This document shows positions 44,594 through 55,600 of a DNA stretch of 64,000 nucleotides, one piece after another. How positions within the stretch are numbered: the first letter of the stretch is position 1; each line of letters starts with the position of its first letter. This DNA is from an uncultured Desulfobulbaceae bacterium (GTDB lineage: Bacteria > Desulfobacterota > Desulfobulbia > Desulfobulbales > Desulfocapsaceae). A program made the position numbers and the translations under genes. The notes under the pieces were generated by a model that saw only the letters and a program-made list of their open reading frames with translations, searched no databases and had not been told where the DNA came from. The stretch spans positions 1 to 64,000 of the forward strand of contig CAISPV010000105.1 in assembly GCA_903887485.1 (NCBI GenBank). Direction: 5' to 3'.

Positions 44594-45347
44594 TTTTCCA
44601 TATCTGATGGCGGAATTCATTGAGGTCCATTTCCCGCATCGTCGCGGCCAGTTCGTACAGCATAGTGATCGCAGCAGGTTCGTCTGTTGTTCTTGCGCCG
44701 TCCATGGCGCCGCCGACAAGAGGCTGTCCATGGCTGTCGGTCTCCAGGAGCAGGTTGGTCATCGGGGTTTCCGAAAAGCAGGGGTGAACCTTGCCGGCGG
44801 CGGTCAGACGGCCTGAAAAGGAGATGAAGCAACCAAGCCTGATCAGCCGTTGCAGGGTCTCACGCGAACCGGCAAAGGAATGGATCATGATCGGCGGCAA
44901 CGGGTCTGCAAATTGTTCCAGGATTTCCAGCAGGCGGCCCCAGGCCTTGACGCAGTGGATAACGAGAGGCCGTTGCAGCTCCGAGGCCATCTTGAGCTGG
45001 GTCAGAAAGATCTGTTGCTGCCTGCCAAAATCAGCCCGGCAGCATTTGTCCAGTCCGGTCTCACCAATACCTGCCGGCACCTTCTGCAACAGGGACATGA
45101 GCCTGTCTTCCCATCCAGCCACCGCCGTTTCCGCAAACCAGGGATGGATGCCGAGGAAAGGGATGACCTCGTGTCCTCTTGCTGCCAGATCGACCACCGC
45201 CTGCCAATCCTCTTCGCGGGTGGTGTTGCAGAATATCCTGGCCACTCCGGCGCTTCTGGCCCGCACCATAATATCATCAATTATTGAGGACAGATGTCGC
45301 TTCTGCAGGTGGCAGTGGCTGTCAAGGTATCCGGCACCTGTTATCAT
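44556..45347 (-). CDS. tatD: TatD family metal-dependent DNase
   Basis: A 263-residue TIM-barrel hydrolase. Metal and catalytic motifs are present: YLDSHCHLQ (start), GIHPWFAETAV, IGETGLDKCC, HCVKAWGRLLEIL, MIHSFAGSRETL, and LLLETDSHGQ. TatD enzymes degrade DNA or act in tRNA/RNA turnover using two metals. It overlaps the ABC permease gene by 4 bases and tcdA by 38, suggesting one transcript. The combination with an exporter is probably incidental. Confidence 0.9.
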   Translation of the reverse strand: MITGAGYLDSHCHLQKRHLSSIIDDIMVRARSAGVARIFCNTTREEDWQAVVDLAARGHEVIPFLGIHPWFAETAVAGWEDRLMSLLQKVPAGIGETGLDKCCRADFGRQQQIFLTQLKMASELQRPLVIHCVKAWGRLLEILEQFADPLPPIMIHSFAGSRETLQRLIRLGCFISFSGRLTAAGKVHPCFSETPMTNLLLETDSHGQPLVGGAMDGARTTDEPAAITMLYELAATMREMDLNEFRHQIWKNGEIFTDTIVPR

Positions 45348-46387
45348 TCATTCCAGGAGAAGATTCGTGCGGCAATGGTCAGGCAGATGAGGGTGATGGC
45401 GACCAGTATCAGGCATTCGCCCTGAACATCGGCAAGGGTTGCCCCGTCATTCATGATCTTGCGGGCCCCGGTCAACATGTGGGTCAGGGGGAAGATCTTG
45501 GCGATGGCCTGAATCCAGGCGGGAGAGCCTTCGAGGGAAAACCAGACCTCAGAGAGAAACATCATCGGCCAGGAGATGAAGTTGAGGATGCCGCTGGTGA
45601 ATTCCTCGCTGGTGCCGCGGGCGGCCAGAACAAGGCCCATGGAGCAGAGGCTGAGCCCGCCCAGGAAAAAGATCAGGGCCAGGGCGCCATAGCTGCCATG
45701 CACCTGAAAGTGGAAGATCAGGTTGGAGCCGATCCAGACCACGATAATGGTGAACATGATGAGAAAGATGCGGGAGAGCATCTGGGCGCTCAGGTATTCC
45801 ATGGGGGTGAGGGGCGTGGCCTTGAGTCGTTTCAGCGTCCCGTTTTTGCGATATTGCACCACCACGTACCCGACCCCCCAGAGGGCGGAAAACATCATGT
45901 TCATACCGAGGATGCCGGGGAAAAGCCAGTCGATGTAGCGGATCTGCACCCCTTTGATCACCTGCTTGTCGGCCAGGCGGGCATTCTTGTCCTGAAGAGA
46001 GGCGAGGAAGATCTGTTCGGCGACATACCCCTGGGGAGAAGAATCATTGATCCAGTAACGGTGCTGCGGGGAGTGGATGTCAAGCAGCAGGTCAATCTTG
46101 AGGTGCTGCAGCTTCTCTTCACCTTCTGCCTGACTGGCGAAGGTGATAAATTGGAGGTATTTCCCCTGTTGAAAAGAAAGGGGCACCGTGCTGCCGGCGA
46201 AATCAATCTGGACCGTGGCCGACCAGACACCGATCTTGAACTGTTGATGTTCCTTGCCCCCAAAGATGAGACCAAAGCCGACAATAATCAGGAAGGGAAA
46301 GATAAAGTTCCAGCCAAAGGCGGCCCGGTCGCGGAAGAATTCGTGATTTCTGGCCGTAAACATGGCCCACATGCGTTTGAAGTTCAT
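45344..46387 (-). CDS. ABC-2 type exporter permease
   Basis: A 347-residue membrane protein with an N-terminal helix (FGWNFIFPFLIIVGFGLIFG), a periplasmic loop of roughly 130 residues, and five helices in the C-terminal half (MMFSALWGVGYVVV, IFLIMFTIIVVWIG, LALIFFLGGLSLCSMGLVLAA, FISWPMMFLSEVWF, LILVAITLICLTIAARIF). The pattern NGTLKRLKATPLTPMEYLSAQM is a YhhJ/DrrB-type signature. It pairs with the ATPase encoded 216 bases upstream on the same strand. The substrate is unknown (drug, lipid or polysaccharide). Confidence 0.85.
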   Translation of the reverse strand: MNFKRMWAMFTARNHEFFRDRAAFGWNFIFPFLIIVGFGLIFGGKEHQQFKIGVWSATVQIDFAGSTVPLSFQQGKYLQFITFASQAEGEEKLQHLKIDLLLDIHSPQHRYWINDSSPQGYVAEQIFLASLQDKNARLADKQVIKGVQIRYIDWLFPGILGMNMMFSALWGVGYVVVQYRKNGTLKRLKATPLTPMEYLSAQMLSRIFLIMFTIIVVWIGSNLIFHFQVHGSYGALALIFFLGGLSLCSMGLVLAARGTSEEFTSGILNFISWPMMFLSEVWFSLEGSPAWIQAIAKIFPLTHMLTGARKIMNDGATLADVQGECLILVAITLICLTIAARIFSWNE

Positions 46388-46448
46388 GATAAGATTTTTG
46401 TAACTATTTGATAATTATTTTTTTGCAGTTTATTCCTCAATGGCAAGA

Positions 46449-46503
46449 ATCGCCAGCAGGGGCTGGCTCCCACACGCCGTAGGAGACAGCCCTTGCTGGC
46501 GAT
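46449..46503. repeat. 17-bp inverted repeat between the ABC genes
   Basis: ATCGCCAGCAGGGGCTG (46449-46465) pairs with 46487-46503 with one mismatch. A small GGGTT/AACCC hairpin follows at about 46532. The sequence (CAGGGGCTGGCTCCCAC) resembles known dispersed palindromic repeats. Because it lies between the ATPase and its permease, it may set unequal expression. Confidence 0.65.
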
Positions 46504-46603
46504 ACCGGACTGGCCATAAAGCCCATATCTTCGGGTTAAAACCCGACCTACTATATTAGGGGTTCAAAAATCTTTTCTCAGCGCCTCAGCGGGAGATCAG
46601 CTT

Positions 46604-47488
46604 TCAATCCCGCAGTTTTTTGCCGGTCAGATATAAAAAAACATCTTCCAGGTTGGGTGAATGGACAGTCATCTCGGTCAGGTCAATATCAAGACTGAGC
46701 AGTTTGGTCAGGCCTTCCTGGACTTGGGCGGTTTTCAGGACAATGGTCTTGTCGCGGCGCTTCCAGCTAAAGGGCAGGGCGTCAAGGCTCATCTTGAAGG
46801 CTGACTCCGGCAGGAGGATGGAACTTCCCTGGCAATGGGTCTGGATCAGGCGGGCCGGGGTGTCCCAGGCAATGATGCTGCCCATATCCATAATCGCCAC
46901 CTCGTCGCAGAGGTATTCCGCCTCTTCCATGGAGTGGGTGGTCATGATGATGGTCTTCCCTTCCGCCTTGATGGTGCGGACAATATCCCACAGATTTCGG
47001 CGGGACTGCGGATCAAGACCGGTGGAAGGCTCATCAAGAAAGACCAGGCGCGGCCTGTTGATCAGAGCAAGGGCCAGCATCAGCCGTTGGAGCTGGCCGC
47101 CGGAGAGCTGGTTGTTTCGCTGTTTTAAGATGGGATGCAGGTCGCAGAGCTGGATCAGGTATTCAAGATCCTCGGGCTGTTGATACAGTTTGTGGAACGA
47201 GATCAGGGTTTCTTCGACGCTGAGAAAATTGAGCAGTGAGGTGTGCTGGAACTGGATGCCAATCTCCTCGCGGAATGACGCGCCTCGTGGTTGCCCCTGG
47301 TACAGGATCTCACCACTGGTGGCGGCAATAATATCCTCGACGATCTCCATGGTGGTGGTCTTACCGGCCCCATTTGGCCCCAGCAGACCAAAGCAGATTC
47401 CCTCGGTGACGGTAAACGAGGCATCCCTTACCGCGGTATTTTCTCCGAATACTTTTCTGAGATTGATGACTTCAACTATTTGATTCAT
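46604..47488 (-). CDS. ABC-2 type exporter ATPase
   Basis: A 294-residue ABC ATPase. Walker A GPNGAGKTTTMEIV, Q-loop GIQFQHTSLLNFL, signature LSGGQLQRLMLAL, Walker B LVFLDEPSTGLD, and H-loop TTHSMEEAEYL are intact. A C-terminal 70-residue extension (LTKLLSLDIDLTEMTVHSPNLEDVFLYLTGKKLRD) is as in drug/lipid exporters of the DrrA/CcmA type. The start is set at 47488 (MNQIVEVINLRKVF). The matching permease follows at 46387. The substrate is unknown. Confidence 0.88.
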   Translation of the reverse strand: MNQIVEVINLRKVFGENTAVRDASFTVTEGICFGLLGPNGAGKTTTMEIVEDIIAATSGEILYQGQPRGASFREEIGIQFQHTSLLNFLSVEETLISFHKLYQQPEDLEYLIQLCDLHPILKQRNNQLSGGQLQRLMLALALINRPRLVFLDEPSTGLDPQSRRNLWDIVRTIKAEGKTIIMTTHSMEEAEYLCDEVAIMDMGSIIAWDTPARLIQTHCQGSSILLPESAFKMSLDALPFSWKRRDKTIVLKTAQVQEGLTKLLSLDIDLTEMTVHSPNLEDVFLYLTGKKLRD

Positions 47489-47534
47489 ATAAGCGTAAGG
47501 TTCCCGGTTGATCGACGTTTTCGATATCCCATCA

Positions 47535-47665
47535 TGAGCCTCTTGCAAAAGTATAATTAGTGGTTCGACAGGCTCACCACGAGCGGGAAAAGGCTAATAA
47601 ATCCAATAAAGATACCGTTCACCCTGAGCCTGTCGAAGAGTATTACCGGAGTTTTGCAATAGGCC
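47535..47665. repeat. MITE-like element with GAGCCTCTTGCAAAA and TTTTGCAATAGGCCC ends
   Basis: The left end GAGCCTCTTGCAAAA and right end TTTTGCAATAGGCC are near-inverted. The inner part contains TTCGACAGGCTCA and TGAGCCTGTCGAA, another perfect 13-bp pair. The ends match the terminal repeats of the element at 57317-57456, so both families may use the same transposase. Confidence 0.65.
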
Positions 47666-47705: not shown

Positions 47706-48437
47706 TCACTTCGTTTTGCCAAGGAACTGATCCACCTCGGCCGGCATATCCTTCATCACCTGCGTATAGCAAGTGGGGCAGATACCATGGGTGAGCATGA
47801 CGTCCGCATGGCGGTGCAGGTAATCCTCGATTGGCAACCATGCCTCATCAATGTCCCGCACTTTTTTACAGTAGCTGCAGATGGAAAGAAGCCTTCGCAG
47901 GGTCTTCAGTTCGTATCTGGCCCGCTCCAGTTCCTCCACCTTGGCAGTCAAGGTCTGGTTGGTCGTGGCGAGTTCAGCGGTGCGCTCCTTGACCCGATCC
48001 TCCAGCTCCCGATTTTTCTGGTTCAGCTCCTCGATCAGCTCCTGATTCCGTTGCTTGAGATGGTATCGTTCCACCGCCTGGGTGATCGTGACCTGCAGAT
48101 CCATTTCGGTCCAGGGTTTGAGAATGTAGCGGTAGACATGCCCCTCATTGATGGCAGCGATGATATCCTGGGGATCAGTGTAGCCGGTGATGATGATCCG
48201 CTCGGCATCGGGCACCAGTTCCCGAGCCCTGGTCAGCAGGTCGACGCCCTTCATCCCCGGCATCCGCTGGTCGCTGACCACCAGGGCGATCTCCTTTTCC
48301 TCCTCCATTACCACCAGCGCCTCTTCGCCGGAGAGGGCGGTAAAGATCTCGAACCTGTCACAGAGCGCCTCCCGGAAGTTGATCAGGTTGATCTCCTCGT
48401 CGTCCACATACAGTATCTTACTCAAATTTGTCTTCAT
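47706..48437 (-). CDS. response regulator with coiled coil and C-terminal Cys cluster
   Basis: A 243-residue protein. The receiver fills residues 1-125 (ILYVDDEEINLINF, Asp56 in LVVSDQRMPGM, TGYTD, LKPW). A coiled coil follows (YHLKQRNQELIEELNQKNRELEDRVKERT). The last 60 residues carry CSYCKKVRD and CPTCY, two CxxC pairs that could bind zinc or iron. No DNA-binding or enzymatic output domain is seen, so the output could be by protein contact or through the metal site. ATG 48437 is used; the longer frame to 48563 lies inside the kinase gene. It follows the kinase gene by 28 bases. Confidence 0.85.
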   Translation of the reverse strand: MKTNLSKILYVDDEEINLINFREALCDRFEIFTALSGEEALVVMEEEKEIALVVSDQRMPGMKGVDLLTRARELVPDAERIIITGYTDPQDIIAAINEGHVYRYILKPWTEMDLQVTITQAVERYHLKQRNQELIEELNQKNRELEDRVKERTAELATTNQTLTAKVEELERARYELKTLRRLLSICSYCKKVRDIDEAWLPIEDYLHRHADVMLTHGICPTCYTQVMKDMPAEVDQFLGKTK

Positions 48438-48465: not shown

Positions 48466-50109
48466 TTACTGCCACTTGAGCGGCAGGGTAATTTCAAATT
48501 CGGCGCCCTGGCCAGGTTTGCTTCGGGCCAGGATTGTCCCCTGGTGTTTCTTGATGATGCCATAGGAGATGGAAAGTCCCAGTCCTGTGCCCATTTCTTT
48601 GGTGGTGAAGAAGGGCTCGAAGATCTGGTTGATCACCTCGGCGGGAATGCCGGGGCCGTTGTCATGGAACAGGATGTGCACCTGCTCCCCAGCCGGCCAG
48701 GTGCGGATCAGGATGGTTCCCTGCTCGGGTATCGCCTGTATTGCGTTGAGCAGGAGGTTCATGAACACCTGGTTGAGCTGCCCCTGGACACCCTCCACCG
48801 GCGGCAGATTTTCGGCCAGATCCAGGCTTAATTCAAGGCGATACTTGTACTCCGGATAGGCCAGCGAGCAGGTGGTGCGCAGGCAGTCGTTGATGTCCAC
48901 CGGCCTGGGCAGCTCATCGGCCGGTCGCGAAAAGTTTTTGAGGTCGCCGACGATTTTGTTGGTCCGCCGTGCCCCCTCGCTGATATTGTCGAGGAGCATG
49001 GTCAGCTTCCTGAAGATGGCCTCGCACCGCTCAATATCCGGTCGTTCTCCTGCCGGCCCATGGAGGAGTCCCTCCAACTCGCTGAGCTGTTTGCGTAGCG
49101 GCGGCAGCGCGCCGCTGATGAAATTGGTGGTATTGTTGATCTCGTGGGCAATGCCTGCCACCAGCCGGCCGATGGCCACCATCTTTTCCGACTGGGCCAG
49201 AAGTATGTGGCTCTCCTGGAGTTCGGTCATGGTCTGGCTCAGCTCCCGGGTGCGTTCCGTTACCGTCTTTTCCAGGCCGTCTTTAAGATCCTGGATGGTC
49301 GAGAAGGCCTTTTCGAGGTCGTTTACCAGCCGGGAAAAGGTATCTCCCAAAAGTCCCACCTCATCCGGCTCGACCGCTGTCTGGCTGCCTCGTGACCGGA
49401 TGGTGTCGATCAGTCGTTTGAGCGGCGTCAACGTCTCGCGGGTCAGAGCATATGTGGCGGCCAGGGAGATGAGCAGGAAGAGGATGGTCAGCGCCGTCGT
49501 CTGGAGCACGGTTTTGTTTACTGCCTGGCCGAATAGACATTTGCCTATAGCCAACTGGGCATAGCCGATCACGGTGCGGGCCTGTCCCTTTTTTTCGGTG
49601 TCAAAGAAAAGGGATTCGTTGCTCTGCAGGTTGGCAACCACCGAGACCGGCGTTGTGAAGATGATCAGCTCGTCGTTCTCCCAAACCTTTCCCTGATCCG
49701 GATTTTGGCGGAAGGTGGTGAGGGCCTTGGTCATGGGGTCGATCAGATGTTGAGAGCCTGGGTGTTTATCTGTTTTGGGGGGAAACTGGCGCAGCATGAC
49801 TCCGTCTTTGGTGTTGTAAACCGTAACCGCCTCGAGATCTTGATGGACATTGAGGGATACTAAGGTCTTCACTGCTTGGTCAATGCTGGTACGATCCTCG
49901 AAATAGAGCCCTGACTGGAGGGAGCCGGAGAGCATGGTGACCATCAGCTCCCCCTGCTGGTGCAGATGGTTCTTGAGCTCTTTGCGCTGGATTATATAGA
50001 AGGTTATCCCGGAGGTCACGGCAAAGCCAATCAGAATCAGGGACAAGGTCAGCAGGATCTTGAAGTTGAGGCCCATCCTGGGCAAACTGGGCCGAAGGGA
50101 AAGGCTCAT
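48466..50109 (-). CDS. membrane sensor histidine kinase
   Basis: A 547-residue kinase. Two membrane helices (about 18-40 and 203-222) enclose a roughly 150-residue periplasmic sensor with no named fold. A HAMP linker is followed by a coiled coil (EKTVTERTRELSQTMTELQES), the HisKA box with His322 in AHEINNTTNFISGALPPL (the NtrB/ZraS-like form), and an ATPase domain (NQVFMNLLLNAIQAIPEQGTI, NGPGIPAEVINQIFEPFFTTKEMGTGLGLSI). It overlaps the substrate-binding protein gene by 4 bases, so the two are likely co-translated and the binding protein could be its sensory subunit. The response regulator follows at 48437. Confidence 0.9.
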   Translation of the reverse strand: MSLSLRPSLPRMGLNFKILLTLSLILIGFAVTSGITFYIIQRKELKNHLHQQGELMVTMLSGSLQSGLYFEDRTSIDQAVKTLVSLNVHQDLEAVTVYNTKDGVMLRQFPPKTDKHPGSQHLIDPMTKALTTFRQNPDQGKVWENDELIIFTTPVSVVANLQSNESLFFDTEKKGQARTVIGYAQLAIGKCLFGQAVNKTVLQTTALTILFLLISLAATYALTRETLTPLKRLIDTIRSRGSQTAVEPDEVGLLGDTFSRLVNDLEKAFSTIQDLKDGLEKTVTERTRELSQTMTELQESHILLAQSEKMVAIGRLVAGIAHEINNTTNFISGALPPLRKQLSELEGLLHGPAGERPDIERCEAIFRKLTMLLDNISEGARRTNKIVGDLKNFSRPADELPRPVDINDCLRTTCSLAYPEYKYRLELSLDLAENLPPVEGVQGQLNQVFMNLLLNAIQAIPEQGTILIRTWPAGEQVHILFHDNGPGIPAEVINQIFEPFFTTKEMGTGLGLSISYGIIKKHQGTILARSKPGQGAEFEITLPLKWQ

Positions 50110-51062
50110 GGTGCGATTCCTCCCGAGTATATCTCGTCCACCGCTGCCTCGTTGATCGTTATCCCCATCCTGTGAAACACTTGGGTGTTGACGATCACCC
50201 GTTGCCGGCGCGGCGTTTCCATCGGGATCTCGCCAGGCTTCGTGCCGGCGAGGATACGGGCCGCCATGTCAGCCGCCTGGCTCCCCATGTCAGCCATGTC
50301 GAAGGTGATGGCCACGGCGGCCCCGGCCTTGAGGTACTTGTCTGAAAAACTGATAATCGGGATGCGGTTGGCCATGGAGAAGTCCCGCAGGGTCTGCAGG
50401 GCCTGCGGGTTGGTAACCAGCTCATCGGGCAGTAACCAGTAGGCGTCGATGGTGGTGGCCAGGCTGTTCAGGGCCTCGGGCACCAGGGCAGGAGAGGCAA
50501 CCTTTTTGAACAGCAGGGGCTTTATCGCACTCACCTGATTCATGAGCGCCTCCTGGACCCACTGGCCGCTCTGGGCCGGGTTGTACAGGGCACCGATACG
50601 GCGAACCTTGGGCATGAGCCGGCTCATCGCCTCCAGTTGCCGGGAAGGGAGGATGCGCAGGTCGATGCCGGTGAAGTTGGCGGGCAGCTTTCCGGCCGAG
50701 GGGGCCAGGAGGTAGAGGATGGGCGTCTGCTCCAGATCGCGGACGAAATCGAGGGCCGGATCGCCGATCACCACCACCAGTTGTGCATTTTGCAGTTGTT
50801 TTTTTAGCGCCCTCTTGTTCTCCTCGGGTTGCTTTGAGAGCAGGAGCTGTGATAAGGTACCATTAGTGATGCTCTTTGGTCCCGCAAGCGGCCGTTCTTC
50901 CATCCATGCCTTTTCAAAGCCCTGGCGGGCCTCCTCGTAGGGCTTCAACGGCGAAGACTGGAGCAGGACGCACTCCTGTCCCCAGGCCGTTGTCGCCAGC
51001 AGCAGGGCCAGCAGCGGCAGGATGAGGGTTATAAGCGTGGGCGGATGATGTCCGTGTTTCAT
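50106..51062 (-). CDS. ABC-transporter-type substrate-binding protein linked to a kinase
   Basis: A 318-residue exported protein with a signal peptide (LITLILPLLALLLATTAWG). The sequence follows the type I periplasmic-binding family used for Trp/Tyr-like ligands (ABC_sub_bind, PF04392): LVVVIGDPALDFVRDL, RRIGALYNPAQSGQWVQ, VPEALNSLATTIDAYWLLPDELV and PRRQRVIVNTQVFHRMGI. No ABC permease or ATPase lies nearby, so it is more likely a sensory receptor than part of a transporter. It is the first gene of the minus-strand trio and is divergent from the TonB receptor across a 152-base gap. Confidence 0.83.
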   Translation of the reverse strand: MKHGHHPPTLITLILPLLALLLATTAWGQECVLLQSSPLKPYEEARQGFEKAWMEERPLAGPKSITNGTLSQLLLSKQPEENKRALKKQLQNAQLVVVIGDPALDFVRDLEQTPILYLLAPSAGKLPANFTGIDLRILPSRQLEAMSRLMPKVRRIGALYNPAQSGQWVQEALMNQVSAIKPLLFKKVASPALVPEALNSLATTIDAYWLLPDELVTNPQALQTLRDFSMANRIPIISFSDKYLKAGAAVAITFDMADMGSQAADMAARILAGTKPGEIPMETPRRQRVIVNTQVFHRMGITINEAAVDEIYSGGIAP

Positions 51063-51214: not shown

Positions 51215-53154
51215 ATGCCCCCTGCCAAGTATCCCTGTTTCTCCCGTGGTCTGGCCCCCTTCGCCGCCACTCTGCTCTGTTGCGTCCCGGTTGTCCAGAT
51301 TGCCCAGGCCGCCGATCCCGTGGCCATGTACTTCGATGATTCCCAGATGGTGGAGGTGGCCACCCGTGCCGCCAAGCCCATCACCCAGGTGGCCGAGAAC
51401 GTCACCGTCATCAGCGGTGAAGAGATCGAGGCCATCCACGCCCAGAGCCTCAATGAGGTGCTGGACCGGGTGGCCGGGGTCTCGGTGAGCGGCCATCCGG
51501 CCGATTTCAACGGCAGTTCCTGGGTATTCATTCAGGGAAGCAGCGAGGAGCATGTACTGGTGCTCATTGACGGCGTCCGCCTCAACTCGGCCATGTCCGG
51601 GGCGGCAGATCTCTCCCATATCCCCCTGCGCATCATCAAGCGGATCGAGATCATCAAGGGGCCTGGCTCTGCGGTCTGGGGCTCCTCTCAGGGCGGGGTG
51701 ATCAATATCATCACCAAGACTCCCACTCCCGGCGCCAGGCCGACCGGCTCGGTGGCAGGCGAGATCGGTGAGCGCGGGGTAGGGGCCTATGAGGTGGATG
51801 TCGGCGGTAAGGTGGACCGGGTCGGTTACTACCTCTACGCCGGTCAACAGGAGTCCGCTGGTCTTCTGAATAACCGCTACTACAATTCGGGCCGGGCCTA
51901 CGGCAAGCTCACCGTCGACCTGCCGCACCAGGGTCTGCTCACCTTCTCCGGTATGGGGCCGTCGATCCCCACTACAAAACCGGCGATTTCGACTACGCTG
52001 CCCCCTATTTCAGCGAGGATATCGGCGACCGCACCCACTTTGTCACCGCCAACTACGACACCGTGCTCACCGAATCGCTCCACCTCAATATCGGCGCCCG
52101 TGACTATGAACGCAACTTTCTCAGCAACCACGATATCCTCTCTTCCAGCCCGGAGGGCGATCCCGGCTCCCTGTTCTGGAAGGCCAACTGGCATGAGCGC
52201 AGCCAGGGCGCCAATGGTCTGCTCACCTGGCACGATTCCTGGCAGCAGGTGGTCCTCGGTGCTGAGATCAACCGCAGCAAGATGGACAGTGTCACCGACT
52301 ACGGTCCCTGGACCCAGGCCAACTGGGGCGCCCCACCCCAGGATGAGTCCCGGCCAGGCGTTGAGGAGGTCTGGGGTCTCTTTGTCAACGACACCCTGCG
52401 CCTGGGCCTGTTCACCCTCACGCCGGGAATCCGCTACGACCAGCACAGCATCAGCGGATCCATGGTCAGTCCCTCCCTGGGCGCCACCTATCTGCTGCGG
52501 CCCGACACCCTGCTGCGGGCCACCGCCGCGCGCGGCTTCCAGAACCCTGTTCTCTCTTACATTGCCGGCGGCGGCATCTGGGACAACCCCAACCCGGAGC
52601 TCAAGGCGGAAGAGGTCTCCTCGCTCCAGGTGGGGGTGGAGAACCGTAGCCTTTCCTTCATGTCCGTCAAGCTCGACGCCTTTCTCCACCACGTCACCGA
52701 TACCTGGATTGTTGATTGGAACACCGGAATCTGGGCCAACGGCGGGAGCAGTGAGCGCAAGGGATTCGAGGCGGGGTTGGAGACCACTCCCTGGCATGAC
52801 CTGAGCCTGGCCACTAATGCCACCTACACCCTGGTGACCCCGGAGGACGAGCAGGCGGACTCCTCTCCTTCCACCGCCGCCAACCTGATCCTGCGCTACC
52901 GCGACACGAGCGGCTGGAAAGGGGAGCTGGCCGGTCACTACATCTGGTGGGACCAGTACAAGATTGGCACGGCTGGGCAAGCGGCGGATATGATCTGGAG
53001 CCTGAGCCTGGGCCGCACCGTCTACAGCACCGACTGGCTCTCTTGTGAGCTCTACGCCAAGGCGTACAACCTCTTGAATGGCCAAGCCACTTCTGAGTCA
53101 TACTATCCCCTGCCGGGCCGTTGGCTGCTGGCAGGCATGCGGGTGAGCTTCTGA
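51215..53154 (+). pseudogene. TonB-dependent receptor with one frameshift
   Basis: About 646 codons of a TonB-dependent outer membrane receptor. A signal peptide (APFAATLLCCVPVVQIAQAA) is followed by a plug domain (VISGEEIEAIHAQSLNEVLDRVAGV, VLIDGVRLNSAMSGAADLSHIPLRIIKRIEIIKGPGSAVWGSSQGGVINIITKTP). The reading frame changes at the GGGG at 51955-51958: before it the frame is that of 51215, after it that of 53154, and one extra G would join SGMG to AVDPHYKTGDFDY. The second half ends in the aromatic C-terminus LAGMRVSF. All other parts are normal, so this is either a very recent lesion or a base missing from the assembly. It lies upstream of a peptide and radical SAM gene. Confidence 0.85.
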
Positions 53155-53235
53155 GTCAGGAACCAAAAATGCGCAGCCTTTTTTCAAGGGCCATGGTGGC
53201 CTTTGGATCAACCCCAACCCAAGGAGGTATATATT

Positions 53236-53367
53236 ATGGATTTGGAAAAAAATGATCTGGTGATTGTATTGGATTGTGGTAAGGACGTTGAGGAGGTGGT
53301 AGTCATGGCGGTCTGCTGTAAAGGTAAGCCGAGTGCGGCTGCAACCGCCGCCTCCACGGACCACTAA
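53236..53367 (+). CDS. putative RiPP precursor peptide (43 residues)
   Basis: A small gene with a strong AAGGAGG 8 bases upstream of its ATG. It encodes 43 residues: an acidic, hydrophobic N-terminal part (MDLEKNDLVIVLD) that looks like a leader, Cys14, then MAVCCKGKPSAAATAASTDH, with Cys27-Cys28 and a small-residue tail as a candidate core. It ends 59 bases before a radical SAM/SPASM gene and follows a TonB receptor gene by 81 bases. A small Cys-containing peptide beside a SPASM maturase is the standard arrangement for a ribosomally made, post-translationally modified peptide. The modification (thioether, C-C or other) cannot be read from the sequence. It could belong to the geopeptide family, but I did not test this. 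Confidence 0.78.
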   Translation: MDLEKNDLVIVLDCGKDVEEVVVMAVCCKGKPSAAATAASTDH

Positions 53368-53376
53368 CCTAAACCC

Positions 53377-53407
53377 GGCCCTGGGAGACTATTATTCCCC
53401 CAGGGCC
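53377..53407 (+). promoter_or_regulatory. GC-rich hairpin between peptide and maturase genes
   Basis: GGCCCTGGG (53377-53385) pairs perfectly with CCCAGGGCC (53399-53407) around a 13-base loop. It begins 9 bases after the peptide stop. No U-run follows, so a partial terminator or a processing/stabilising hairpin is more likely than a full stop. Such hairpins let precursor peptide be made in excess over the enzyme. Confidence 0.6.
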
Positions 53408-53425
53408 CCTTCCCTGAACCCTGCC

Positions 53426-54727
53426 ATGCCCCTTTCCCATTATCTGAAGATCCTGCCCCTGCCCGGCCAACCGGAGAAGCGGCTGCTCTTCTCCACCCGG
53501 ACCTGCGGATTGGCCATTGTCGCCGCCGAGGCCCTGGCCGCCCTGCAGGACAACAGCGCCAGCCCTGAGCTGACCGCATCCCTGGCCCGGCTTTCCATGG
53601 TGGTGGCCGACCCGGCCCGCGAGCAGCAGGAGATGGGCGGCTACCTTCAGGAGCTCAATCGTCTGAACCCCAATCTGCGGGTCTCGGTGATCCTGGGTAT
53701 GGCCTGCAACTTTGCCTGTGTCTACTGCTACGAGGGCAGCCTCAAGGGGGCGGCCGCCATGAATGATGCCACCGCCGACCAATTGGTGGCCTTTTTGCTG
53801 GCCCGGTTCCGAGCCGGTAAGAAGAAACGCCTCATCCTCGATTTCTATGGCGGCGAGCCGCTGCTCTATACCCCGCGCATCCGCTATCTGGCCGAACGTC
53901 TTCAACCGGCCATCGAGGCCTTGGGCGGAAAATTTGAATTTACCCTGGTCACCAACGGTTCGCTGTTGACCAGGGTGGTGGTAGAGGAGTTGGTGCCACT
54001 CGGCCTGGTCAGCGTCAAGGTCACCCTTGACGGCACAGCAGACAATCACAACCGTTTCCGGCCCTTTAAGGACGGTCGCGGCAGCTGGTCGGTCATCGTT
54101 GACAACCTCCTCGCCTGCCGGGGCCTCTGCGCAATCACCCTCAGCGGCAACCACACCGCCGAGAATTACACGGTTTTTCCAGACCTGCTTGATGCCCTGG
54201 CCGACAGGGGTTTTGCGACCAGCGACTTTGCCAGCGTCCAGTTCTATCCGGTGATGCAGGTCAACGATCAGTTTGCCAACCCCGAATTCACCGGCGGCTG
54301 CTGCTCCAACGACGAGCCCTGGGTCCACGCCACCTCGCTTATCCTGCGCGAGGAGATCCTGCAACGGGGCTACAACTTCCCCAAACTCTCCCCCAGCCCC
54401 TGCATGGTGGACCTTGACGATGCCTTCACCGTCGATCACGACGGAACCATCTACAAATGTGTCACCCTGATTGGTCACCCGGACCTTGCCTGCGGCGACA
54501 TCCGGCAGGGTATGGCCCTGGGTTGGCAGGAGAGCTGGTGTCTGGACCACTGGCAGAATGAGGCGCAATGCCGCGACTGTGTCTACCTGCCCCTCTGCTT
54601 CGGTGGCTGCCGCGCCATGGCCTTTCAGCGTGACGGCCACATGAGGCAGGTGGATTGCCAGCGCGCATTGTTTGACGCCACCCTGGAGCCCATGCTGCAA
54701 CAGGATCTCAGGTATCGATATGCATGA
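53426..54727 (+). CDS. radical SAM/SPASM peptide maturase
   Basis: A 433-residue radical SAM enzyme. The [4Fe-4S] motif CNFACVYCYEG has Cys94, 98 and 101 (the CX3CX2C form), followed by DFYGGEPLL, TNGSLLT and SVKVTLDGTADNHNRFRPF of the TIM barrel. The C-terminal SPASM domain has CMVDLDD...YKCVTLIG...ACGDI, then CRDCVYLPLCFGGCRAMAF and a last Cys in VDCQRALF, giving ligands for two auxiliary clusters. The N-terminal MPLSHYLKILPLPG...LLFSTRT block resembles, from memory, the family called geopeptide maturase. ATG 53426 fits that family start; an in-frame GTG at 53333 would run across the peptide gene and the hairpin. The substrate is probably the 43-residue peptide. Confidence 0.9.
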   Translation: MPLSHYLKILPLPGQPEKRLLFSTRTCGLAIVAAEALAALQDNSASPELTASLARLSMVVADPAREQQEMGGYLQELNRLNPNLRVSVILGMACNFACVYCYEGSLKGAAAMNDATADQLVAFLLARFRAGKKKRLILDFYGGEPLLYTPRIRYLAERLQPAIEALGGKFEFTLVTNGSLLTRVVVEELVPLGLVSVKVTLDGTADNHNRFRPFKDGRGSWSVIVDNLLACRGLCAITLSGNHTAENYTVFPDLLDALADRGFATSDFASVQFYPVMQVNDQFANPEFTGGCCSNDEPWVHATSLILREEILQRGYNFPKLSPSPCMVDLDDAFTVDHDGTIYKCVTLIGHPDLACGDIRQGMALGWQESWCLDHWQNEAQCRDCVYLPLCFGGCRAMAFQRDGHMRQVDCQRALFDATLEPMLQQDLRYRYA

Positions 54728-54952: not shown

Positions 54953-55600
54953 ATGCCAGTACGGATGACCAGCCAGCGCGAAATAATTCTTCAGGAATTG
55001 CAGAAAAGCAGACAGCATCTGACCGCTGATGAACTGTTCCGGGTTGTCAGGAAAAAAATGCCCCGAATCAGTCTGGCCACGGTTTACCGGAATCTCGAAC
55101 TTCTGTCAGAGGCCGGCGTGATCGCCAAGCTGGAGGTGAGTGGTCGCCAGAGGCATTTTGATAGTGAAGTGGTTGGTCATGATCACGTCACTTGTGTGCT
55201 ATGTCACAGAGTAGAGAATGTGCGTTTAGAGGGGATAAAAGAAGATTGTCCTTCACATGGTGTGGTGGATGGGTATATTATAAAAGGACGCAGGTTAGAG
55301 TTTTTTGGGCTGTGTCCCCGGTGTCAGAAAAAAAACAGAGCTATAAAAGGAGACGATACGATGGGATGTGGATGCGGATGTGCGAAAAAAATGCTGACAG
55401 ATGAGCAGAAAAAGGTGTTGCAGGCTATGGCTGATTGTGATGGCCCTTGTGCCGCCAAGGATATTGCGGCCGCCACGGGTCTTGATGCCAAGATGGTCAG
55501 TGGCAAGATAGCTGATCTCAAGAAGCAAGGCTTTGTTGACAGTCCGGTGCGCTGCAAGTACGGCATCACCGCTGAAGGCCGGACGGCCATGAAGGGTTAG
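54953..55600 (+). CDS. perR: Fur/PerR family regulator fused to a second HTH domain
   Basis: A 215-residue protein. Residues 1-128 are a full Fur-family regulator: winged HTH (SQREIILQELQKS...LTADELFRVVRKKMPRISLATVYRNLELL), then RQRHFDSEVVGHDHVTCVLC with the H-x-H metal site, and a second CPRC pair for structural zinc. Residues 137-215 are a different module, MGCGCGCAKKMLTDEQKKVLQAMADCDGPCAAKDIAAATGLDAKMVSGKI, another HTH with a Cys-rich start. The join has no stop codon, yet AAAAGGAGA lies 8 bases before the internal ATG at 55361, so the second module may also be made alone. Because the genes downstream detoxify peroxide and superoxide, PerR-like regulation is inferred. Confidence 0.85.
   Translation: MPVRMTSQREIILQELQKSRQHLTADELFRVVRKKMPRISLATVYRNLELLSEAGVIAKLEVSGRQRHFDSEVVGHDHVTCVLCHRVENVRLEGIKEDCPSHGVVDGYIIKGRRLEFFGLCPRCQKKNRAIKGDDTMGCGCGCAKKMLTDEQKKVLQAMADCDGPCAAKDIAAATGLDAKMVSGKIADLKKQGFVDSPVRCKYGITAEGRTAMKG

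Follow-up and report, generated by a model that had tools for sequence, protein, structure and literature searches.

A geopeptide-type RiPP locus of an uncultured Desulfobulbaceae bacterium and its linkage to a TonB-dependent receptor, a binding protein and a sensor kinase

The window analysed here is a stretch of 64,000 nucleotides from an uncultured Desulfobulbaceae bacterium (contig CAISPV010000105.1, positions 1 to 64,000). In it, a gene for a 43-residue peptide is followed by a hairpin and by the gene for a radical SAM/SPASM enzyme, and the question is what this enzyme makes and what the product is for. So far, "geopeptide" has served only as an annotation label for a family of enzymes to which neither a product nor a role has been assigned, and the name itself is absent from the literature that we searched. 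Searches on geopeptide, on TIGR04280 and on RiPP combined with TonB returned nothing on the geopeptide system or on a linkage to a receptor, a solute-binding protein and a kinase. Peptide communication and metal acquisition are both poorly known in sulfate- and metal-reducing bacteria. A preliminary description of the locus read the peptide, the hairpin and the enzyme as a RiPP system; it is the cassette of receptor, binding-protein and kinase genes, absent from that description, that has a bearing on function.

The enzyme (433 residues; 53426..54727, forward strand) belongs to the NCBIfam family TIGR04280, "geopeptide radical SAM maturase", which it matches with 496.5 bits against a cut-off of 400, residues 1-431 aligning with profile positions 1-428. 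The placement in the geopeptide group, offered tentatively at first, is thereby borne out. The next-best families score far under their own cut-offs, and the SCIFF model (TIGR03974) gives 102 bits where its cut-off is 425. The radical SAM motif C94-x3-C98-x2-C101 and the SPASM cysteines C326, C345, C382, C385, C391, C395 and C411, both noticed at the outset, are invariant in 23 homologues. The enzyme starts at 53426, where the homologues share a beginning like MPLSxYLK, and not at the GTG at 53333 that would open a longer frame. The peptide ORF ends 58 nt upstream of the maturase, which thus has the adjacent CC-core precursor of a TIGR04280 system.

The AlphaFold model of the maturase (pLDDT 93.3) comprises an N-terminal domain, a radical SAM barrel and a SPASM domain, in this order. 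Residues 7-71 are modelled as beta-beta-beta-alpha-alpha-alpha, the order of PqqD-like RREs, and we describe the N-terminal part (residues about 1-75) as an RRE-like domain of the PqqD-like winged-helix type. The model matches CteB (5why), a thioether synthase, with a Z score of 29.1 and an rmsd of 4.4 over 383 residues, spanning residues 4-429, and TigE (8vpo) with a Z score of 25.1 over residues 1-433, N-terminal domain included. The enzyme thus shares its overall fold, including the N-terminal and SPASM domains, with the CteB/SCIFF ranthipeptide maturases (5wgg, 5why), but identity is about 20%, and the SCIFF precursor has six conserved cysteines where the peptide here has two. The RiPP radical SAM/SPASM fold is likewise common to TigE, ChlB and SkfB, although the chemistries of radical SAM maturases vary (sactionine thioethers, cyclopropylglycine). 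The chemistry cannot be read from the fold, given that related enzymes introduce thioethers, form cyclopropylglycine or catalyse still other modifications (PMC9062424, PMC6231123).

The comparison drew on related loci from named contigs, from near relatives and from 395 Desulfobacterota genomes, 31 of which carry a maturase above the TIGR04280 cut-off; the systematic sampling covers this one phylum. Upstream flanks of up to about 8-11 kb were taken. Five distant loci (below the cut-off or about 30% identical) were set aside from a total of 61 enzyme loci, leaving 56. Some distant maturase subfamilies (L124, L134, L137 and L149) have small ORFs, such as MKLQVIKKGTRKDDKKTLYCAWFVST and MKVIKVGKKYGRVHPMGCCWYIYGGYMLGF, on the downstream side of the enzyme, and mostly no receptor alongside; they are possibly a sister RiPP group.

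The peptide gene (53236..53367, forward strand; ATG at 53236, stop at 53365-53367) encodes MDLEKNDLVIVLDCGKDVEEVVVMAVCCKGKPSAAATAASTDH and lies behind the strong ribosome-binding site AAGGAGGT (53221..53228, forward strand), just as the preliminary description had it; GGAGG-type sites also precede the homologous peptides in relatives. The 43-residue peptide is under purifying selection: the pooled pN/pS of its frame is 0.27 in six close relatives, compared with 0.91 and 1.27 in the shifted frames, and with 0.225 for the enzyme. A homologous peptide was found at 53 of the 56 loci, and the other three (L128, L131 and L132) are contig ends that break off before the position of the receptor, so that every locus of sufficient length has the ORF. 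Five of these peptides, including that of the window locus (L138; the others are L085, L115, L117 and L121), were recovered by further scans, having been missed initially as artefacts of start choice or position. A strict peptide pattern preceded 47 of the 61 maturase-related genes, and none of 633 other genes at the same loci had it upstream; CC belongs to this pattern, so its occurrence in every match is partly by construction. Peptide loci without CC that were spotted by eye are rare (L146 has CIC). Neither of the two outcomes named beforehand as fatal to a RiPP reading, namely the lack of a homologous small ORF beside related enzymes and the lack of purifying selection on the peptide frame, was found. 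One locus (L133, the same as L016) has two tandem geopeptide genes upstream of a single maturase.

Across the family, the peptide consists of a hydrophobic strand ending in V-L-x-x-G, 6-24 residues, CC, and then 7-15 residues, with a residue that is often basic nine positions beyond the first core cysteine. The CC, which corresponds to Cys27-Cys28 of the window peptide, and the upstream VxVLxxG strand are the sole conserved features. In the window peptide, the strand is VIVLDxG (VIVLDCG), the core is of the CC-x-G-K-P type, and two of the three cysteines are conserved. Of the residues initially proposed as key, Cys14, Cys27 and Cys28, the pair therefore stands; Cys14 was rejected as a modification site, being conserved in the closest relatives alone and replaced elsewhere by Q, P, E, N, H and others. 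The acidic leader-like half is similarly a trait of the window's genus and not of the family as a whole. The suggested search of the NCBI models gave a divided answer, as the enzyme passes TIGR04280 but the window peptide has no match at E 10 with TIGR04229, the geopeptide precursor model (22 positions, cut-off 30 bits). Among ten relatives' peptides, four scored between 9.8 and 29.6 bits with this model, the top score belonging to a Geobacter-type relative, and the others were unmatched. Intermediate peptides with the VLxxG strand and the vicinal CC connect the window peptide to these matches. The window peptide thus shares the VLxxG...CC layout of the Geobacter-type peptides but differs in its CC-x-G-K-P core, and since it is of the same kind and unmatched by TIGR04229, it extends the described precursor family.

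The perfect 9-bp hairpin reported between the two genes is present (53377..53407, forward strand). Its GC-rich arms, GGCCCTGGG (53377-53385) and CCCAGGGCC (53399-53407), enclose a loop of 13 nt, and the RNA has a minimum free energy of -21.5 kcal/mol (z = -4.0 relative to shuffled sequences); the window sequence lacks a T-run behind the stem. Inverted repeats in the gap between peptide and enzyme genes were better than in dinucleotide shuffles (p<=0.05) in 42 of the 48 loci tested, their sequences being mostly unrelated and the stem often followed by a T-run. The hairpin is therefore conserved in form, and the predicted co-occurrence of peptide, hairpin and enzyme holds in homologous loci. It is probably an attenuator or a transcript-end stabiliser, which, together with the stronger ribosome site of the peptide gene, would set an excess of precursor over enzyme.

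When the neighbours of 55 loci were clustered, three families recurred: a TonB-dependent receptor at 47 loci, a cluster of sensor histidine kinases at 41 and a PF04392 binding protein at 37. The clustering gave no further widely recurring family, the next being an ABC ATPase at 8 loci. Gene order varies among orders (in Desulfobulbales the receptor and peptide genes run in the same direction, in others they diverge), and the set stays together. No conserved exporter or leader peptidase in the cassette, and no permease recurring with the binding protein, was found across the loci compared. The window does contain an ABC-2 exporter (ATPase and permease, 45344-47548) beside the response regulator. 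We rejected it as a part of the system, because its ATPase occurs in the close relatives L081, L082 and L083 and is absent from L079, L080 and L084 (about 8 kb of flank); present in some close relatives only, it is at best a candidate exporter.

The receptor gene of the window (51215..53154, forward strand) is interrupted by a 2-nt insertion near 51952, where GGGG at 51952-51955 stands against GG in the close relative L004. The gene is thus split into two frames, with collinear profile matches at 51242-51955 and 51946-53151 (441 and 333 bits on the receptor profile). In these MAG data, the frameshift is either a real pseudogene or an assembly error. In a targeted search, the receptor was within the flank at all 53 peptide-bearing loci. 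In 12 genomes the linked copies scored at least 588 bits on the receptor profile and the other receptors of the same genomes at most 202; this profile and that of the binding protein were built from linked loci, so that high scores there, but not absence elsewhere, are partly by construction. The subfamily occurs in 34 of the 395 genomes, that is, in all 31 maturase genomes and in 3 of the 364 others (G189, G245 and G254), two of which, G189 and G254, have a sub-threshold maturase. Genomes with two cassettes keep one receptor per cassette. This is a dedicated receptor subfamily, and the receptors that its profile most resembles are CirA, BtuB and those for ferric enterobactin.

The remaining genes of the cassette lie on the reverse strand of the window. 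They encode a PF04392 (ABC_sub_bind) periplasmic solute-binding protein with a type-I PBP fold (50106..51062), a sensor histidine kinase with an sCache_4 periplasmic domain (48466..50109), and a response regulator composed of a REC domain, a coiled coil and a Cys-rich C-terminus (47706..48434). The response regulator, in which no DNA-binding domain was recognised, is conserved mainly within the same order. The binding protein was seen at 43 of 56 loci in a targeted search, and its subfamily scores above 280 bits in 30 of the 31 maturase genomes, being in pieces in G341. Used as a single query, the window protein was present in all eight genomes of the genus that have a maturase and absent from all nine that do not. 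Four genomes (G251, G435, G216 and G064), three of them with high scores, have the binding protein without a maturase; in every case it lies at a contig end, and we rejected these cases as evidence for its independence. The model of the binding protein (pLDDT 88.9) matches PF04392-type structures, namely 3lft (with Trp), 3lkv and 6hni, and, more weakly in Foldseek, LuxP with LuxQ (1zhh) and TorT with TorS (3o1i), in which the binding protein acts as a co-sensor of the kinase. The binding protein adjoins the kinase without a permease, as in a LuxP/LuxQ-like co-sensor. The layout of a type-I binding protein beside a sensor kinase, with no permease, is that of LuxP-LuxQ and TorT-TorS, whereas the protein family (PF04392) and the kinase (sCache_4) are different here and an outer-membrane receptor is added.

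In several loci, the peptide goes with the receptor where the maturase does not adjoin it. A third receptor-binding protein-kinase set of G244 (L146:8529-10560) has the peptide MREEHDDLLVLEEGSDTEMPMTCICTTSVTKIK (MREEHDDLLVLEEG...CIC) and no maturase nearby; this leader is almost the same as in the MREAHDDLLVLEEG...CC peptide that accompanies a maturase at L100 in the same genome, so maturation in trans is likely. At L117 the peptide directly follows the receptor and is parted from the maturase by about 1.7 kb with a reverse-strand gene, and at L115 it lies on the strand of the receptor, divergent from the maturase. Even a 29%-identical enzyme (L143, in G030) is accompanied by a VILKKG...CC peptide, a receptor, a binding protein and a kinase. 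Conversely, two receptor-binding protein-kinase sets (L147, 4999-14354, and L148, 6481-11855) were found with neither peptide nor maturase, and these cassettes are possible eavesdroppers. Partial Mantel tests on 46 loci, a type of test that is lenient when sequences are related, gave a correlation of leader distances with those of the enzyme (partial r 0.41, p 0.0005) but not with those of the receptor (0.09, p 0.07). Core distances correlated with those of the receptor (0.19, p 0.001) and, to a smaller degree, of the enzyme (0.14, p 0.0035). A weak co-divergence of core and receptor is what these sequence distances point to.

Taken across the phylum, the linkage of the cassette points to a peptide that is retrieved and sensed by the cell that makes it. 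We tentatively explain the locus as a geopeptide-type RiPP locus whose product is a self-made, retrieved and sensed peptide ligand, a reading that we hold with a little less than even confidence. Following the precedent of CteB and the co-divergence of leader and enzyme, the VIVLDxG leader would dock on the RRE-like domain of the maturase. The neighbouring maturase, which has a single radical SAM cluster and two auxiliary clusters expected in its SPASM domain, would then modify the peptide by radical chemistry at Cys27-Cys28, most likely forming a Cys thioether; no acceptor residue is conserved after the CC, so the type of modification is a guess. The leader would be cut off and the core exported by machinery outside the conserved cassette. 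The product may then be taken up by the TonB-dependent receptor with which it is associated and be bound by the PF04392 protein, which, by analogy with LuxP-LuxQ, might report to the sCache kinase and the response regulator. That the geopeptide is a ligand of its own receptor we regard as somewhat more likely than not; that it is an autoinducer is somewhat doubtful. More doubtful still is the widest form of the idea, in which geopeptides are radical-SAM-modified autoinducers of Gram-negative anaerobes, with a CC core that is exported, retrieved through TonB and presented by PF04392 proteins to the kinase, while peptide-less cassettes would eavesdrop and additional peptides, matured in trans, would broaden the code. 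For ranthipeptides, a connection with quorum sensing has been described in clostridia (Chen et al. 2020, as cited in PMC8102284).

How do other explanations fare? That the small ORF is a leader, an attenuator or a chance ORF, with the enzyme acting elsewhere, would fit the hairpin that separates the two genes; given the conservation at the amino-acid level (pN/pS 0.27), the absence of such an ORF from all 633 background genes and the TIGR04280 membership of the enzyme, this is barely credible, and peptide and enzyme very probably form a RiPP system. Alternatively, the modified CC peptide could be a secreted metallophore that binds a soft or scarce metal and is imported through TonB, the solute-binding protein holding the complex and the kinase reporting metal status. 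The vicinal, invariant cysteine pair and the nearness of the receptor to CirA, BtuB and ferric-enterobactin receptors favour this idea, and so does the methanobactin operon (MbnA/B/C, MbnT, MbnE), in which a RiPP precursor likewise stands beside its own TonB receptor, MbnT, for uptake and a binding protein, MbnE (PMC7558416). However, a radical SAM enzyme here replaces MbnB/MbnC, the oxazolone-forming enzymes, which were found neither among the scanned window genes nor among the recurrent locus families; a kinase pair is present; and the binding protein, rather than being of the MbnE/OppA type, belongs to PF04392, of which 3lft, bound to Trp, is a solved member. Moreover, thiols consumed in thioethers would bind no metal, and no metal gene is conserved. 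The pairing of the binding protein with a kinase, in a set that lacks a permease, leads us to favour signalling over metal scavenging or a purely nutritional role. We consider a metallophore unlikely.

Receptor, binding protein and kinase might instead handle another outside molecule, with the geopeptide a co-regulated effector (a cofactor, an antimicrobial or an envelope-acting compound) that is not their ligand. The peptide-less sets at L147 and L148 are what this predicts, and the receptor does resemble small-molecule receptors; on the other hand, receptor and maturase occur together in 31 of 31 genomes, multi-cassette genomes have one receptor per peptide, and the receptor-peptide linkage persists where no maturase adjoins (L146, L115 and L117), which makes such an arrangement quite improbable. 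Very improbable is a carrier role, in which a small cofactor-like product, comparable to PQQ or mycofactocin, is cut from the CC core and salvaged by the receptor: CC alone is invariant in a very short core, and for PQQ, a cofactor of radical SAM RiPP origin, a TonB receptor of its own exists (9c4o, among the receptor matches), but downstream enzymes that could excise or tailor such a product are not conserved in the cassette, and the residues after CC co-vary, albeit weakly, with the receptor. The preferred reading of a sensed peptide ligand has its own difficulties. Peptide-less sets are expected for eavesdroppers but equally for a receptor with another ligand, and so count against a ligand; the siderophore- and cobalamin-like receptor profile, the response regulator without a recognised DNA-binding output, the lack of a conserved exporter or peptidase, the frameshifted receptor of the window and the weak core-receptor signal do so as well. 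Because the linkage to one receptor and one binding-protein subfamily is near-perfect, the product has become a testable ligand-receptor question. Should the peptide prove to be the ligand, sulfate- and metal-reducing bacteria would possess a radical SAM RiPP together with the whole chain for its retrieval and sensing.

Downstream of the maturase, the PerR, peroxiredoxin and rubredoxin neighbours were rejected as parts of the system, PerR being confined to close relatives. The PerR/Fur-type regulator of the window (54953-55600) continues in frame into a Cys-rich GCGCGC and winged-helix-like domain; this fusion contains an internal ribosome site and an ATG at about 55362, and ORFs of similar length (215-217 residues) lie downstream at L081-L083.
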